NCBI GenBank assembly: GCA_016928995.1
Contig: JAFGJS010000125.1
Coordinates: 31,600 to 95,599, forward strand
Direction of reading: 5' to 3'
Length of the DNA stretch: 64,000 nt
Source: Candidatus Sumerlaeota bacterium
GTDB taxonomy: Bacteria > Sumerlaeota > Sumerlaeia > JAFGJS01
The notes under the pieces are model-generated. The model searched no databases and had not been told where the DNA came from. It worked only from the letters and a program-made list of their open reading frames with translations. The position numbers and the translations under genes were made by a program. How positions within the stretch are numbered: position 1 is the stretch's first letter; every line of letters starts with the position of its first letter. Shown one piece after another: positions 17,113 to 24,947 of this stretch.

Positions 17113-17635
17113 GCGCGGCCCAAAGGCTGTGCTGGTGTGACATTTTATCAAGGGGGATGAGGCGAGAGCGCTTCATCCTCTTTTCTTTTTATCACTCATG
17201 CTCATGCTCATGCTCTTGCTCTTTAAGGAATTATAACATGCTGTTTTTCGAGCAAGAGCATGAGCAAGAGCAAAAGCAAGAAAACTCGGACTGTGGCATT
17301 GGACGAATACAATTTCACTCATCGTGATGAGAAAACCGGACTAAGGATTTCCGCTCCTTTCATCGATTCGATCAATCGTGAAGCATTGTTGAATATAGAC
17401 TTGAGCATTAAAATGGTTGCTGGACCAGCCATGAAAATAAACAAGGCTGGAATAAATTGACTTGTCGGATGCGCGGGAATTTGACGGATCCGAATCTCCG
17501 GCCGGCGCTACAGCGGCTGCGGAGAAATCGTGCTTGACCATTCGAGGGATTTCACTTTAACATCATCGGTCTTTTAAACAGCATTGATACATTCCTGTTG
17601 CTGCGTTTTGCGCTCGCAGAAGTTTAAGCTCATAC
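17113..17635. other. Intergenic region with repeat element
   Basis: About 520 bases between leuD and the giant secreted protein. The left two fifths hold the GAGCAA-type inverted-repeat element (separate entry). The ORF at 17260-17460 begins inside that repeat (MSKSKSKKTR) and is probably not real. I see nothing further beyond the presumed promoter of the downstream gene. Confidence 0.5.
17195..17339. repeat. GAGCAA-type inverted-repeat element, copy 1
   Basis: Left arm CTCATG x3 + CTCTTG + CTC (17195-17221), a loop of about 28 bases ending ctgtttttc, and right arm GAGCAA/GAGCAT units (17250-17280). It is followed by a conserved tail tcatcgtgatgagaa (17319-17333). The second copy at 23634-23780 has the same arm-loop-arm-tail order in the same direction, so this is a dispersed element and not a simple terminator. 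Confidence 0.8.
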
Positions 17636-20600
17636 ATGGAGGCCGCGAAAGTGACTGGTCGTACGATATTCAAGGTGTGGATGGTGGCGCTTTGCCTGAG
17701 TCTTTGTGGCGGAGCATGGTGTTTCCCCGGGGATCTGAATGAAAACGGCTATGCGGATGAGGAGGATGTCATCCAAGTGCGGAATCATGTTCTCGGCGGT
17801 GAAATGTTGAGCGATTTGGATCAATTGCTCGCCGACACTAACGGGGATGGGGCGATTGATATCGCGGATCTGGTGAAAATTTTGGAATCGGTCCCGATTC
17901 CGGGTCTGATCGGCCTGATCAAAACGGGGCAGGCGATTTCTTACGCGACTTTCGATGACGGGTATTACGCGGATACGGTGGGTCTGCCGCGCAGTTACGT
18001 GAATAACGGCGACGGCACAGTGACTGACGCCTCCACGGGATTAATGTGGATCCAGGATCCCGCTTCAATCGGCCTGACTGGACCGTATACTTTTGATGAT
18101 GCGCTGGCTGCGGCAGATGCATTGGATTACGCAGGATTTGATGACTGGCGCCTGCCAACGGTCGGAGAACTTTTAACGCTGGTAGATTCAGGGAGACAAT
18201 ATCCAAACCCGACGATCGACACTGATTTTTTTGTGGTGGCGGCGCCCAGCGGCAACCAGAATACAAGATATTATTGGACCTTAACTGTAGTGGATGATCC
18301 AGGTGCAGCGACAGCAGTTGGCTGGGGAGTCGACTTCACAGGGGGCACTGCGGGGATTCTATCTCAAACAGGTACGACAGTATATTACAACATTCGGCCG
18401 GTAAGATCGGGATCTTCCGCGAATAATCAACGTCTTCCTTATCCTGTCTTTCGTCCCCATTTTGAATTAGTGGAGGATGGAACGATGGTGCATGATACTA
18501 CGACGGACCTGGTCTGGCTGCGCGATCCGTTGGTTGTGGATGATTCAATCCTGGTTGACGCTCCCGCAACGAGTCCTAAATCACGCGCACTCATCGAGCA
18601 ATTCAACTGGGCGGACGCGATTTCGGCCTGTGAGAATTATGAATTTCGCGGTTATACTAATTGGCGTATGCCGAATCGCAACGAGTTGCAGAGCATCGTG
18701 AAGTATAACAGTTTGAATCCCGTGATCGACACTGATTTTTTCAATATCGGCGCCGGCACTGTCTTTTGGACGTCCACTTCGAATGCGAACAATAATCTTC
18801 TCGCCTGGGTGTTATCGTTTTATCACGGCACGATCTATACTACGGGCAAGGCGAACGTGCTGCGCGTGCGGCCGGTGCGCAGCCGGACTTCCGTGCTGGT
18901 CGTTGATCCTGAAGCGCTGGATTTCGGCACTCTCCTCGATGAACTGACGCTGCAAATCAGCAACGGGGGCGACGATGCCTTGGCCTGGACGCTGTCCGAG
19001 GAGCCGATCGTGGATTGGCTCACGGCCTCGTCGGCCCAGGGCGACACCGCCGCCACGGGAACCTTTTACGGCACGGAAGATGAGACGGTGACTGTCACGG
19101 TATCCCGCGCCAATCTTGCTGAGGACACTTATTACACGTCGCTGCATCTGACGAGCACGGACGGCGCCGATCTTTACGTTCCCGTGACGATGATTTATGA
19201 AATACCGGATCCGGTTTTGCATGTCGAGCCATCCTCGCTCGATTTCGGCACGACGGAGACCTATCTGACTCTCGACATCACGAATCTCAGCTCGCCGACG
19301 CTCTACTGGACGGCGTATGACCCGAATGTGTCGTGGATGTATATGAGCGACAGCCAGGGAGAGGCGCCGGACAAGCAAACCAAGACGGCGCCCAGAATGG
19401 ACGTTTCCGGCGTTGAAGACGGGATTGTCTATCTGGATGTGTACCGCGGCGGCTTGACCAGCGGCACATATACCGCTACGATTATCGTGGACGCCGGCGA
19501 ATACGGCTATGAGGAGATACCCGTGCTGATGGAAGCGGACGGCGCACAGATCGTGCTGGAGCCGAGGTCGCTCGATTTCGGCACGACGGGGACGGACATG
19601 TGGTTCTATTTGACCAATCCGGGCAATGATCCGTTGCAATGGACGCTGACGGAAAACATCGACTGGGCTTCGGTCACCGATTATCAAGGCGCCCCGATGA
19701 CTGGCGGCACGTTGAATCCGGGGTATAGCGAATGGTTCTATGCGCATGTCGACCGGGTGGAATTGCCCAACGCCATTTACTCGGATTTCCTCGTGTTCGA
19801 CGGCGGTCCGGCGGGTGTCGTGAACATGCCGATTCAGATGCAAGTCGGCAATCCGCTGCTTGATGTGACGCCGACCACCTTCACGATGGGCGACACCGCC
19901 ACGACGTTCCCAGTCGATATTTCAAATCTGGGTATACTGGATATGAACTGGACGCTCACCCAGAATCCGCAAGGGCCTTCCTTCAATATTACTTCGCTGG
20001 GGGGCAATGGCGAAACGGCTTATGGGGCCAATCCGATCACCGGCGTGAATGACGACACGGTGGTCGTTGAGATCGAGCGCGTTGATCTGGATAACGCCGT
20101 GTATTATGGCTACTTTACGATCGACGCTGGATCGGCGGGAGATGTGACCGTCGAGTTCTCCTTCATCGTCAACGAGCCGGTTCTATACGTCGATCCGCCG
20201 ATCATTAATTTTGGCGAGACGACCACCAATTACGGAGTCGCCGTAAACAACCTCGGCGGCAAAGTGATGCCTTTCACCGTGATTGAGTCTCCCGTCGAAG
20301 ACTGGTTCGATGTCAGCGGACCCGGCGGATCGACCAGCGCCATGGGATCATATTCCGAGGCGGACGCCACGACATTGACCGTCACCGTGGACCGGTCAGC
20401 CCTGACGACCAACGGCGTATACAGCGGGTACTTCGACATCGACGCGGGCGATGCGGGTTTCGAGACGGTCTTTATTGAAATGACCGTGATGCCAATCCTC
20501 GATGTCAGTTCGAAGACGCTCAATTTCGGCGACAGCATCTCCACTTTGTCCTTCACCGTGAGCAACGCCGGCTACGGCACGATGAATTTCATCATCGATG

Positions 20601-23503
20601 AGTTCCCCCAGGAGCCTTGGGTCAAGGCTGTGACGGTGGATCAAGCCACGCACTATGACGACAGCACTTCCCCCACGGCTTATGAACGCAAGCCTGCCAT
20701 CGACACGGACGGCAACGGCGTCTTTGTTGCCGTCTGGCAAGCGGAAAATGAGCTCGGGACGGTTGGAAATATTCTGCTTTCGCGCTCGGAAGACTACGGC
20801 CAGACCTGGAGCGAGCCAATCGTCATCAGCCAGAACGGCTCGGGCGATGTGGAGGATTTTCACGCGGACATCTCGTGCAGCTCCTTGGGAGAGTGGATTG
20901 TCGTATGGGAATCGCGGGAAGACATCCTGGGCGCCGGTTCTGACTCGGATATTTTCTGCGCTTCTTCTTTTGACGATGGCATGACCTGGACCGCGCCGTC
21001 GCTGGTGAATAACGATGGCACGACGGACATGGATAACGACACCTTGCCGCGAGTGGCAGTCTGGGTTGAAGGGACGGCGTATTGCGTCTGGCAGACCGAC
21101 GGCGATCCCGATGACAATGGTCCGGATTTGGACATCATGATGGCCCGGACAGATACATTGGGCGCGAGTTTCGATGATCCGGCGCTCATCACGCCCAACA
21201 GTTTTGGCGTCGCGGACGACCGGAATCCAGACATTGAATATGACGAGAACGGCACGTGCATCGTCGTTTATGAGACGAACGAGAATTTCGGCATGATGGC
21301 GGGCACGGATTTCGACATCGCCTATTATTATACGAATGATTGGGGCACGAATTGGATCGGCCCCAGCATCCTCAATCCCGACGCGATGGGCGATGCTTAC
21401 GATTGCACACAGCCCCGCGTCGCGACGGAACGGACAGGCGGTTGGATGGTCGTTTGGACTTCCACCGGCGCGGAGTTAGCCTTTGGCCCCGATTTGGATA
21501 TCTTTTCGGTCTACTCGTATACGAATGGAACGATGTGGAGCGGCATGTATCCGGTGAATGTGGATGCCGCCTACGACGCCGAAGATGATTACGATCCCTA
21601 CATCGCCTTCAACGACGTTGAGTTTATGGCTTCCTGGACGGCGAGAAAGTATGACATGCAGCATAATATTTTCGTCGCGACTCCTTATTTGCTTAATATG
21701 CCCTCGCCGGAGCAGCCGGAAAAAGGCGATGTTCAGCCAGCCCCTAATATGTTCTTCGGCTGGAATGACATGTACTGCATCAGCACGGATATCTTCGAGA
21801 CAAATCTCAACCATGAAAGTTCGCAAATTGCTGGATACTTCGGCGAAAGCTCTAATTGGATTGGAGTCTGGGCGGCTGACGACAACGGCGGCGAATCCGA
21901 CATCCATTACAATACGTTGTCAGATTTCCAGGTCGCCTGGGATTCGCCGCATCAACTGGGCGTCAAGCATGAGCAGATCTACGGACTGCAGAGCGCGGAT
22001 GTCACTGTGTCCGTCGACCGGCGTCTGCTGCCGGCCGGATCGTATTTCATGACGATTCCAGTCATCGAAACAGAATTCTCTCAGTCGGAGAACATTAACG
22101 TCTTGGTGGATGTCCTGAATCCCACGATCAGCGTCATGCCGGGCATGCTGGATTTCGGCACGGTCATGCCGGCCATGCCGCTGACGATCAACGTCAGTCC
22201 GGGCTGCGACGCGCATTGGTCCGCCAGCGTCAACTCCGACGATCCCTGGATTTCGCTGGAGTCCGCGTATGGCTATGCCTACGAATATTACAGCATCGCT
22301 TCCGTCAACGCGCAGCAGCTGAACGTCATTGTGAACCGCAGCATGATCACGGAAAACACAACAGTGAATACCACGGTCACGATCTATTCCAACGATACAA
22401 GCCAGACTCTCGAGGTTCCGGTGCAAGTCACGATTGAGCCTGAATTGGGCGTATCCCCGCCCGCGATCGATTTAGGCCCGACGAGTTTGTATATGACGCT
22501 GGAAATCTTCCCGGCAAACGGCGGAGTGCTGGATTGGGCGACGACCACGACCGCCAATGACCAGTATCTCAGCATCGACACGCCATGCGGCAGCGGGACG
22601 CCGGCTTGTTCCGGCTCCACGTCGGGAGTCGTCGCGATTGAGATGATGGCTTTCCGCGATCCGATGCCGATGGGCATTTACGATACGACGTATGAAGTCT
22701 CCCAGACCAACGGCGCTCAATCGAATATCAGCGTGCCGGTTCGCATCGCCAAGGCTCCCGTGTTGGATGTCTTCACCGATGCCGGCAATCAGACCGTGCA
22801 TATCGCGTCCGATGAATCCCTGGGGGCGTTGGAGGCGCTGAACGTGGGGACATGGGGCACAACGATCAGTTGGACGTTTCAAGAGCAAACCCCGCAAGAT
22901 TTCTGGTACGCTTATATTGACGGCCAGGGCGGAATGGATCTTGGTCCGATGATCAGCGGACTGGGAGAGGCGATGATCGACATTCAGATCGACCGGCTTG
23001 CCATGCAGGCGGCGACATCAGACACGCTCGTGGTGACGACCGGCGTGCTGACGATCATGAATTACTTCGGCTACGGTCCGCAACAGATGTTCATCCGCAT
23101 TGAAATCGAGAATCCTCCGGTGTTGTCTTACTACAACGCGGATATCTTCTACAACGACGTGTTGTACGTCGATGAACTGGATTTCTTATACTACATGGAC
23201 AGCATCACAACCCGCACACTGCAACTCTACAACTCGGGCGGCGGCGATTTGATCAATTACTCCATCACTCGTCTTTCGGGCGCCGAATGGCTGCGCGCAG
23301 AGAATGAGAGCGAATCCTTCGGGCCGGAAGATACGGAAGTATTCACGATCAATGGTTTGACGCCATCCAACGTGGATATTGGCGTTCCGGACAACTGGCA
23401 AGCTTTGGGCGGATGCTCGAATAACACTTATCTTGAAATCAGGAATGAAGATTCGGGTGAATCGCAATTTATCTATATCAACGTCGATGTTTGCGGTCCC
23501 TGA
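17636..23503 (+). CDS. Giant secreted multidomain protein: dockerin, DUF1566-like, Ig/BACON-like and BNR domains
   Basis: A 1955-residue exported protein. A signal peptide (FKVWMVALCLSLCGGAWC) is followed by a type I dockerin at about residues 30-85, with the two Ca-binding loops GDLNENGYADEEDV and DTNGDGAIDIADL. Then come two DUF1566/Lcl-like domains (about 125-258 and 280-415; TDASTGLMWIQD, DDWRLPTVGELL and TNWRMPNRNELQS, each ending RPVRS). From about 420 a long series of Ig/BACON-like repeats begins, each opening with a form of VxPxxLDFGTT and WTL. A sialidase-like BNR block (about 1010-1350) carries Asp-box motifs SEDYGQTWSEP and SFDDGMTWTAP. More Ig-like repeats follow. It is likely a cell-surface or matrix protein; a substrate is not shown. 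A terminator follows. Confidence 0.85.
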   Translation: MEAAKVTGRTIFKVWMVALCLSLCGGAWCFPGDLNENGYADEEDVIQVRNHVLGGEMLSDLDQLLADTNGDGAIDIADLVKILESVPIPGLIGLIKTGQAISYATFDDGYYADTVGLPRSYVNNGDGTVTDASTGLMWIQDPASIGLTGPYTFDDALAAADALDYAGFDDWRLPTVGELLTLVDSGRQYPNPTIDTDFFVVAAPSGNQNTRYYWTLTVVDDPGAATAVGWGVDFTGGTAGILSQTGTTVYYNIRPVRSGSSANNQRLPYPVFRPHFELVEDGTMVHDTTTDLVWLRDPLVVDDSILVDAPATSPKSRALIEQFNWADAISACENYEFRGYTNWRMPNRNELQSIVKYNSLNPVIDTDFFNIGAGTVFWTSTSNANNNLLAWVLSFYHGTIYTTGKANVLRVRPVRSRTSVLVVDPEALDFGTLLDELTLQISNGGDDALAWTLSEEPIVDWLTASSAQGDTAATGTFYGTEDETVTVTVSRANLAEDTYYTSLHLTSTDGADLYVPVTMIYEIPDPVLHVEPSSLDFGTTETYLTLDITNLSSPTLYWTAYDPNVSWMYMSDSQGEAPDKQTKTAPRMDVSGVEDGIVYLDVYRGGLTSGTYTATIIVDAGEYGYEEIPVLMEADGAQIVLEPRSLDFGTTGTDMWFYLTNPGNDPLQWTLTENIDWASVTDYQGAPMTGGTLNPGYSEWFYAHVDRVELPNAIYSDFLVFDGGPAGVVNMPIQMQVGNPLLDVTPTTFTMGDTATTFPVDISNLGILDMNWTLTQNPQGPSFNITSLGGNGETAYGANPITGVNDDTVVVEIERVDLDNAVYYGYFTIDAGSAGDVTVEFSFIVNEPVLYVDPPIINFGETTTNYGVAVNNLGGKVMPFTVIESPVEDWFDVSGPGGSTSAMGSYSEADATTLTVTVDRSALTTNGVYSGYFDIDAGDAGFETVFIEMTVMPILDVSSKTLNFGDSISTLSFTVSNAGYGTMNFIIDEFPQEPWVKAVTVDQATHYDDSTSPTAYERKPAIDTDGNGVFVAVWQAENELGTVGNILLSRSEDYGQTWSEPIVISQNGSGDVEDFHADISCSSLGEWIVVWESREDILGAGSDSDIFCASSFDDGMTWTAPSLVNNDGTTDMDNDTLPRVAVWVEGTAYCVWQTDGDPDDNGPDLDIMMARTDTLGASFDDPALITPNSFGVADDRNPDIEYDENGTCIVVYETNENFGMMAGTDFDIAYYYTNDWGTNWIGPSILNPDAMGDAYDCTQPRVATERTGGWMVVWTSTGAELAFGPDLDIFSVYSYTNGTMWSGMYPVNVDAAYDAEDDYDPYIAFNDVEFMASWTARKYDMQHNIFVATPYLLNMPSPEQPEKGDVQPAPNMFFGWNDMYCISTDIFETNLNHESSQIAGYFGESSNWIGVWAADDNGGESDIHYNTLSDFQVAWDSPHQLGVKHEQIYGLQSADVTVSVDRRLLPAGSYFMTIPVIETEFSQSENINVLVDVLNPTISVMPGMLDFGTVMPAMPLTINVSPGCDAHWSASVNSDDPWISLESAYGYAYEYYSIASVNAQQLNVIVNRSMITENTTVNTTVTIYSNDTSQTLEVPVQVTIEPELGVSPPAIDLGPTSLYMTLEIFPANGGVLDWATTTTANDQYLSIDTPCGSGTPACSGSTSGVVAIEMMAFRDPMPMGIYDTTYEVSQTNGAQSNISVPVRIAKAPVLDVFTDAGNQTVHIASDESLGALEALNVGTWGTTISWTFQEQTPQDFWYAYIDGQGGMDLGPMISGLGEAMIDIQIDRLAMQAATSDTLVVTTGVLTIMNYFGYGPQQMFIRIEIENPPVLSYYNADIFYNDVLYVDELDFLYYMDSITTRTLQLYNSGGGDLINYSITRLSGAEWLRAENESESFGPEDTEVFTINGLTPSNVDIGVPDNWQALGGCSNNTYLEIRNEDSGESQFIYINVDVCGP

Positions 23504-23526
23504 TCCGCAAGCATCGCCTTCAACTG

Positions 23527-23567
23527 AAAACGGGAGCGCCAGGAATTACCGGCGCTCCCGTTTTTTT
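23527..23567 (+). terminator. Rho-independent terminator after the giant gene
   Basis: aaaacgggagcgcc pairs with ggcgctcccgtttt around a 10-base loop and is followed by TTT, 24 bases after the stop codon. Confidence 0.92.
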
Positions 23568-23633
23568 GTTAGTCAGGATCGAGTTCCCAGTCTGTATTTC
23601 TCACCACTCAGCATATTTTTGGCAGTGAATAAT

Positions 23634-23780
23634 TGCTTCACTTGCTCGTGCTTTTGCTCTTCATGCCCAACCATACACTGTTTTTGAGCGAGAGCAAAAG
23701 CAAGAGCAAGAGCAAGAGCAAGAATATTTGGTCTCGAGCACGAGACAATTACCATCTTATTCATCGTGGTGAGAAGGTCG
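23634..23780. repeat. GAGCAA-type inverted-repeat element, copy 2
   Basis: Left arm of CTTGCT/CTCGTG/CTTTTG units, a loop containing cactgttttt, a right arm of GAGCGA-GAGCAA-AAGCAA-GAGCAA units (23686-23722), then the tail tcatcgtggtgagaa at 23761-23775. It matches copy 1 (17195-17339) in order, orientation and tail sequence. On the minus strand the tail supplies the last codons and stop of the glycosyltransferase at 23757-24947. Confidence 0.8.
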
Positions 23781-24947
23781 GGTCAGAACCTCTTCATAGA
23801 TCTGCATCATCTGCTCCACGTGCGTCTGGATGCTGAAGCGGCGGCGGCAATCATCGGCGGCGGCGCGTCCGAGGCTTCGACGCAAAGCTTCATCGTTATG
23901 CAGCCGGGCTATGGCCTGCGCCAATTCTCCGGTGTCGTCGCAGGGAACAAGCAGACCGGTGCGCTGATCGTCGATCACTTCGGGAATGCCGCCCGTGCGC
24001 GCGCCGATGGAGGGCTTCTCAAAGGCGGCGGCTTCGACGATGACGCGGCCGAAGCCTTCCTCATTGGAAATCAGCAGATTGACATCGATGGCGGCAAAAA
24101 CGTCCCGGATTTTTTCGCGGAACGGAATGAAGTGGATTCGATTCGAGGCTGGGGAGCGCTGAGCCGCGTCGCGGACTTCCTGATGATAGCCGGCTTCGGA
24201 CGGCGTCGCGTCGCCCACGATGCAGAGATGCAGCCGCGGGCGCCCGTCGCTGACGCGATTGAAAGCCTCAATGGCGGCATGCTGCTGTTTGCGTTGGCTG
24301 ATCAATCCGATCTGGCCGAACAGAATCGCGTCCTCGGAAATTCCAGTTTCCCGCCGGAAGGCTGTTCCATCCGCATCTTGCATGAACGCCTCGAAGTCCA
24401 GCCCGTTATGCACGACGCGAATCCGGTCCTGGATTTGCGGAAAAGCGGAGAAATCATGCGCCACGGCGTTCGAGACGACGATGACACGATCCGCTTCGGT
24501 CAGGCGGTAGGTTTGAATCTGCCGTTCCGTGATGCTCAGCCGCACATGCACGAGCGTCGGGACGCCGGTTTTGCGCGCGATGGCCGCGGCATAAGGGTGG
24601 CTGTGAAACTCATTCGAATGGATCAACCGGGGTTGGATACGCTCCATGACGCGGCGCAATCGCCAAAGATGCCACGGCCGCAGCAGCATGTTTTTCCCTT
24701 TACGCCAGGGGGGGAGCGGTGAGATTTCCACCGCCACCTGCGCCGCTCGCAGGCGTTGTTCCAGGCCGCCGGGCCAGGGGCAGATCACGTGCGGGATGAA
24801 GCGTTCGCGGTCCAGACCAACGGCGAGCTGCAGGAGCGATTGCCGGGCGCCCAGCATGCGCACGCTTGGCGTGAGGATGGCGATTGGATTGGGATTTAAG
24901 GGATGATGCTGATCTGAAGAGGAATATTCTGGCACGAATCGATCCAA
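23757..24947 (-). CDS. Glycosyltransferase family 4
   Basis: A 396-residue GT-B glycosyltransferase. The N-terminal domain shows AILTPSVRMLGARQSLLQLA and RLIHSNEFHSHPYAA; the donor domain shows LFGQIGLISQRKQQHAAIEA, LCIVGDATPSEAGYHQEV and the EX7E motif in SNEEGFGRVIVEAAAF, followed by RTGGIPEVIDDQRTGLLVP. These bind the nucleotide sugar. The last residues RPSHHDE and the stop codon come from the tail of the repeat element at 23634-23780, so the natural end of the gene may have been replaced. It stands alone between the giant secreted protein and the division cluster. The acceptor is unknown. Confidence 0.9.
   Translation of the reverse strand: MDRFVPEYSSSDQHHPLNPNPIAILTPSVRMLGARQSLLQLAVGLDRERFIPHVICPWPGGLEQRLRAAQVAVEISPLPPWRKGKNMLLRPWHLWRLRRVMERIQPRLIHSNEFHSHPYAAAIARKTGVPTLVHVRLSITERQIQTYRLTEADRVIVVSNAVAHDFSAFPQIQDRIRVVHNGLDFEAFMQDADGTAFRRETGISEDAILFGQIGLISQRKQQHAAIEAFNRVSDGRPRLHLCIVGDATPSEAGYHQEVRDAAQRSPASNRIHFIPFREKIRDVFAAIDVNLLISNEEGFGRVIVEAAAFEKPSIGARTGGIPEVIDDQRTGLLVPCDDTGELAQAIARLHNDEALRRSLGRAAADDCRRRFSIQTHVEQMMQIYEEVLTRPSHHDE

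Follow-up and report, generated by a model that had tools for sequence, protein, structure and literature searches.

Two GAGCAA hairpin elements beside a giant gene in a Sumerlaeota genome belong to a dispersed family of probable MITEs

The window, a 64,000-nucleotide stretch of DNA corresponding to C11:31600-95599 of a 4.55-Mb draft genome in 161 contigs, contains a 1955-codon giant gene (17636-23500) that lies between leuD and a glycosyltransferase ORF encoded on the minus strand (23757-24947). The leuD gene is followed on the plus strand by a terminator-like stem (17150-17183), identified by a consensus match only. The giant protein contains Lcl_C domains, a BACON domain (BACON_2), and a weak dockerin match. 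A leuD match was present in 20 of 39 genomes; in the 16 class relatives with flanks compared, the 1.5 kb to either side of leuD contained neither the giant gene nor the glycosyltransferase gene, and the gene order from leuD to the glycosyltransferase is not shared across the class.

The sequence-only reading of this region described two elements flanking the giant gene, each with inverted GAGCAA-type arms, the loop word CTGTTTTT, and a matching tail, and both are found at the positions given for them. Copy 1 (17187-17343, plus strand) is placed by alignment and tree in sub-clade A2 of the MITE family A described below, of which it is a remnant; its start abuts the terminator-like stem 3' of leuD and its left terminal repeat is gone. 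The left arm of copy 1, comprised of TGCTCA/TTGCTC units, spans approximately 17187-17221 (units from 17195) and the right arm, comprised of GAGCAA/GAGCAT units, approximately 17250-17284 (units to 17281), both on the plus strand; the arms are 83% complementary and enclose a 28-nt loop. Its tail, TCATCGTGATGAGAA, occupies 17319-17333, and its right terminal inverted repeat, which reads TAGTCCGGTTTTCTCATCAC on the minus strand, occupies 17324-17343 with two mismatches to the family A end. Alignment and end matches identify copy 2 as a complete family A MITE of about 23588-23785 (plus strand), which is in the expected place and is larger than had been proposed, with both ends present: a left terminal inverted repeat at 23588-23607 (plus strand, three mismatches to the family A end) and a right one at 23766-23785 (minus strand, two mismatches). 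Between these lie a left arm of TTGCTC-type units (23641-23658) and a right arm of GAGCAA-type units (23686-23721), both on the plus strand, with 95% complementarity between 23641-23660 and 23691-23710, followed by the tail at 23761-23775. The tail is shared by both copies, as had been observed, and makes up the inner portion of the terminal inverted repeat on the right. The glycosyltransferase ORF terminates inside copy 2, with its stop at 23757, so that its last nine codons (LTRPSHHDE) and stop (23757-23785, minus strand) are element DNA.

The two copies share 64% identity. The window contains 12 arrays of three GAGCA units, every one of them within copy 1 or copy 2, versus an expectation of 0.06. 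The predicted hairpins of the two elements are far stronger than those of dinucleotide-shuffled sequences (z of -6.5 and -5.2), while Rfam models had no matches in the window at their gathering cut-offs.

Searches of the whole genome found at least 127 forward and at least 131 reverse matches to GAGCAA arrays. Among the matches listed, and pooled with other searches, GAGCAA-type elements occupy about 65 scattered places, an approximate count that includes a few places supported by end matches alone, and most of these are far from the giant gene. The elements constitute at least two MITE families, A and B, which are short (about 150-240 bp), present in many scattered copies, and devoid of a transposase gene; no gene lies within the 27-nt (A) or roughly 95-nt (B) loops. 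Of the two origins that had been offered for the window elements, a dispersed non-autonomous repeat family is supported by the dispersal, the terminal inverted repeats, the target duplications of family B, and the lack of an internal gene. Both families look non-autonomous and old. GAGCAA arrays were absent from 60 other genomes, none of them related more closely than at the level of the class, and family A DNA had no matches in other species. No transposase gene bearing A or B ends was found in the draft genome when PF01609, the sole transposase family searched in this way, was considered. The DDE_Tnp_1 loci were rejected as the autonomous partner of A or B, as their ends do not match.

Family A comprises about 16 copies, the two window copies among them, with ends TAGCCCGnnnTTCTCACCAC in inverted orientation, and 12 copies, including copy 2, can be aligned end to end. 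Allowing up to three mismatches, the family A ends had 29 matches, almost all of which are paired at element ends, whereas the reversed pattern had 5; no end pair enclosing a gene was found. In the family A tree, copy 1 and the copies on contigs C79, C85, and C43 form sub-clade A2 with a support of 0.999, also when array columns were masked, and copy 2 is sister to the copy on C22 (support 0.98). Target duplications, which had been suggested as a check, yielded divergent results for the two families: a scan of family A gave a best z of 3.1, below the 95% level of permuted maxima (3.68), so that a fixed-length duplication is non-significant there, whereas family B has one of 9 bp. The sequence YTAR is frequent at both edges of family A elements. 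The terminal repeats, the dispersal, and the analogy with family B suggest that family A has likewise been mobile. A sequence that starts with CCCATGTTCCGCAGTTT and may be the end of an insertion sequence adjoins elements at YTAR near contig ends (L336:1627, L337:1446, and the right flank of L049).

Family B is represented by 20 or more copies with ends GGGCGCATCTYRASTTTRTCC, including 20 elements with both ends; these ends had 40 matches in the genome versus none in the control. The loop between its GAGCAA arms is mostly about 95 bp. A scan of lengths and offsets placed the target duplication directly outside the ends, with a length of exactly 9 bp (z = 10.6; p ≤ 5e-5 by permutation), represented by two exact and three 8/9 matches. 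Such a duplication is what transposition with a staggered cut, for example by DDE transposases, leaves behind. Together, the terminal repeats and the duplications demonstrate the mobility of family B. The end sequences and duplication length are reminiscent of the ISKra4, IS5/IS903, and IS1380 families, a resemblance that does not amount to membership.

Although their ends differ, families A and B contain the same type of GAGCAA hairpin. One element, L311, is an A/B chimera in which a B end is joined to an A loop and an A end, and in two copies, L010 and L004, the loop is reversed in orientation relative to its flanks. The chimera and the inverted loops suggest recombination through the arrays. 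A third family consists of gene-less hairpins with CGAGAA units; its C97 copy is bounded by ends TGCTTTGTTGAAAA and, as read by eye in this one copy, shows a direct repeat of 9 bp, AGAGATGCT. These observations suggest that MITEs of the Sumerlaeota genome repeatedly have a hairpin core of hexamer arrays as their interior. The existence of two mini-transposon families with different ends and one such core, and of a third with a related core, provides a testable lead on the origin of the core. Hairpins of similar composition were also seen in other genomes. A Prosthecobacter MAG (L175:1640-1830) contains a GAGCAA hairpin flanked by ends GGGCGCATCCCAG, of which GGGCGCATC is common to the family B end, and Desulfobacterales bacterium HSG2 contains many gene-less hairpins in which GAGCAA is mixed with GATAAA or GATTAA units (L142, L163, L171, L195, L205, L217).

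The two window elements are very likely old and independent family A insertions with the giant gene between them by chance. A trans-acting transposase recognizing the TAGCCCGnnnTTCTCACCAC ends would have moved each family A element of ~190 bp, the interior of which is a gene-less hairpin of GAGCAA hexamers. Copy 2 would have inserted at the glycosyltransferase 3' end, thereby supplying its last codons, while copy 1 would have inserted behind leuD and then lost its left end. Because family B, with other ends, has the same GAGCAA hairpin type, it is probable that recombination and slippage in the hexamer arrays exchanged the cores or formed them anew. The shared orientation of the two elements, one on either side of the giant gene, could instead suggest a composite transposon in which they served as paired ends that brought in the gene as a unit, the other origin considered in the sequence-only reading, and class 1 integrons flanked by identical MITEs are found in Acinetobacter (PMC10969869). 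However, copies 1 and 2 belong to different sub-clades and are not near-identical, copy 1 lacks its left end, and most copies are distant from the gene. Their 6.4-kb spacing is unremarkable, since 3 pairs of elements were seen within 6.5 kb versus 5.9 expected by chance for 65 elements, and Pfam recognizes no transposition domain in the giant gene. Joint movement of the gene and its flanking repeats is accordingly extremely improbable, which removes a tempting but wrong story of gene transport. A role for the hairpins as RNA or DNA signals that the host maintains and whose usefulness explains their spread, for instance as 3'-end sites, RNase III processing sites, or arrays bound by proteins, would fit their strong stems and the frequent location of family A copies at gene 3' ends or between convergent genes, as judged from crude ORF calls. 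Family A arms are also more alike within an element than between elements (p 0.0002; extraction was poor for three arms), although this likeness is absent in family B (p 0.99), and arm co-variation was given little weight because it is significant in one family and absent in the other. Moreover, terminal repeats and target duplications mark family B as mobile, a search at copy 2 detected no terminator-like site, and leuD is already followed by such a stem of its own; together these points render a host-signal origin quite unlikely.

Inverted arrays also surround genes of the 23S-rRNA-IVP (four-helix-bundle) type, PF05635, which is likewise unusual. Arrays of this kind, built of short units, flank 24 of the 31 PF05635 loci in the class, scoring above the 99% level of controls made from mismatched pairs; the median score was 41 and the mean of the controls 19, while the largest control score was 305, probably through near-identical loci among those compared. 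The array unit around these genes is 6-9 nt and differs from gene to gene, both in the Sumerlaeota genome and in class relatives (L068-L074, L114-L134, L140). The GAGCAA hairpin might be a gene-less remnant of an IVP-type element, a PF05635 gene between inverted arrays, that was captured inside MITEs. A PF05635 gene of Crocinitomicaceae bacterium HKST-UBA68 (Bacteroidota; L168:7330-7910) is enclosed by GAGCAA arrays and has an extended TTGCTC run to one side, although the purine-rich arm comes first there, the reverse of families A and B. At L071:1360-1960 of the Sumerlaeota genome, an IVP gene lies between CGAGAA arrays and shares with gene-less CGAGAA hairpins of the same genome both the arrays and a 30-bp non-array module; these findings support, without proving, a common module. 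Against such descent, no GAGCAA arrays were seen around IVP genes of the Sumerlaeota genome, no PF05635 gene was found between the arms of family A or B, and short arrays are able to arise repeatedly, so that capture of an IVP remnant is a doubtful account of the core. Similarly tentative is the broader proposal that inverted short-unit arrays may form a separable module, passed among MITE families that use different transposases and serving also to house IVP (S23p) genes; the hairpin MITEs with GAGCAA or CGAGAA units would then be gene-less forms of a little-described class of IVP-linked mobile elements. Among the papers searched, none described IVP genes with inverted arrays, and the comparison offers a lead on why inverted short-repeat arrays surround these widespread and poorly understood genes.

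Among known systems, the IVS of Coxiella 23S rRNA, which carries S23p/IVP genes, resembles families A and B in having inverted terminal arms around a loop, and tandem heptamers lie upstream of its gene (PMC4990558). Families A and B differ in lacking a gene, and the copies examined are not in 23S rRNA. REP/REPIN elements, which go with RAYT (Y1_Tnp) genes, are likewise dispersed intergenic palindromic repeats, whereas A and B elements have longer terminal repeats and those of family B generate 9-bp duplications. No GAGCAA arrays were present within 1.5 kb of Y1_Tnp genes at nine matches; six RAYT loci with flanks read (L077-L082) each have other palindromic repeats of their own. Close parallels exist with prokaryotic MITEs such as Correia, Chunjie, and QMITE1/2, which, like families A and B, are shorter than 500 bp, gene-less, and bounded by terminal inverted repeats, with many truncated or diverged copies that are mostly intergenic, and which have direct repeats, as does family B (PMC10969869). 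Unlike those elements, families A and B have an interior composed of an inverted hexamer array, and a GAGCAA hairpin core common to MITEs with different ends is unusual.
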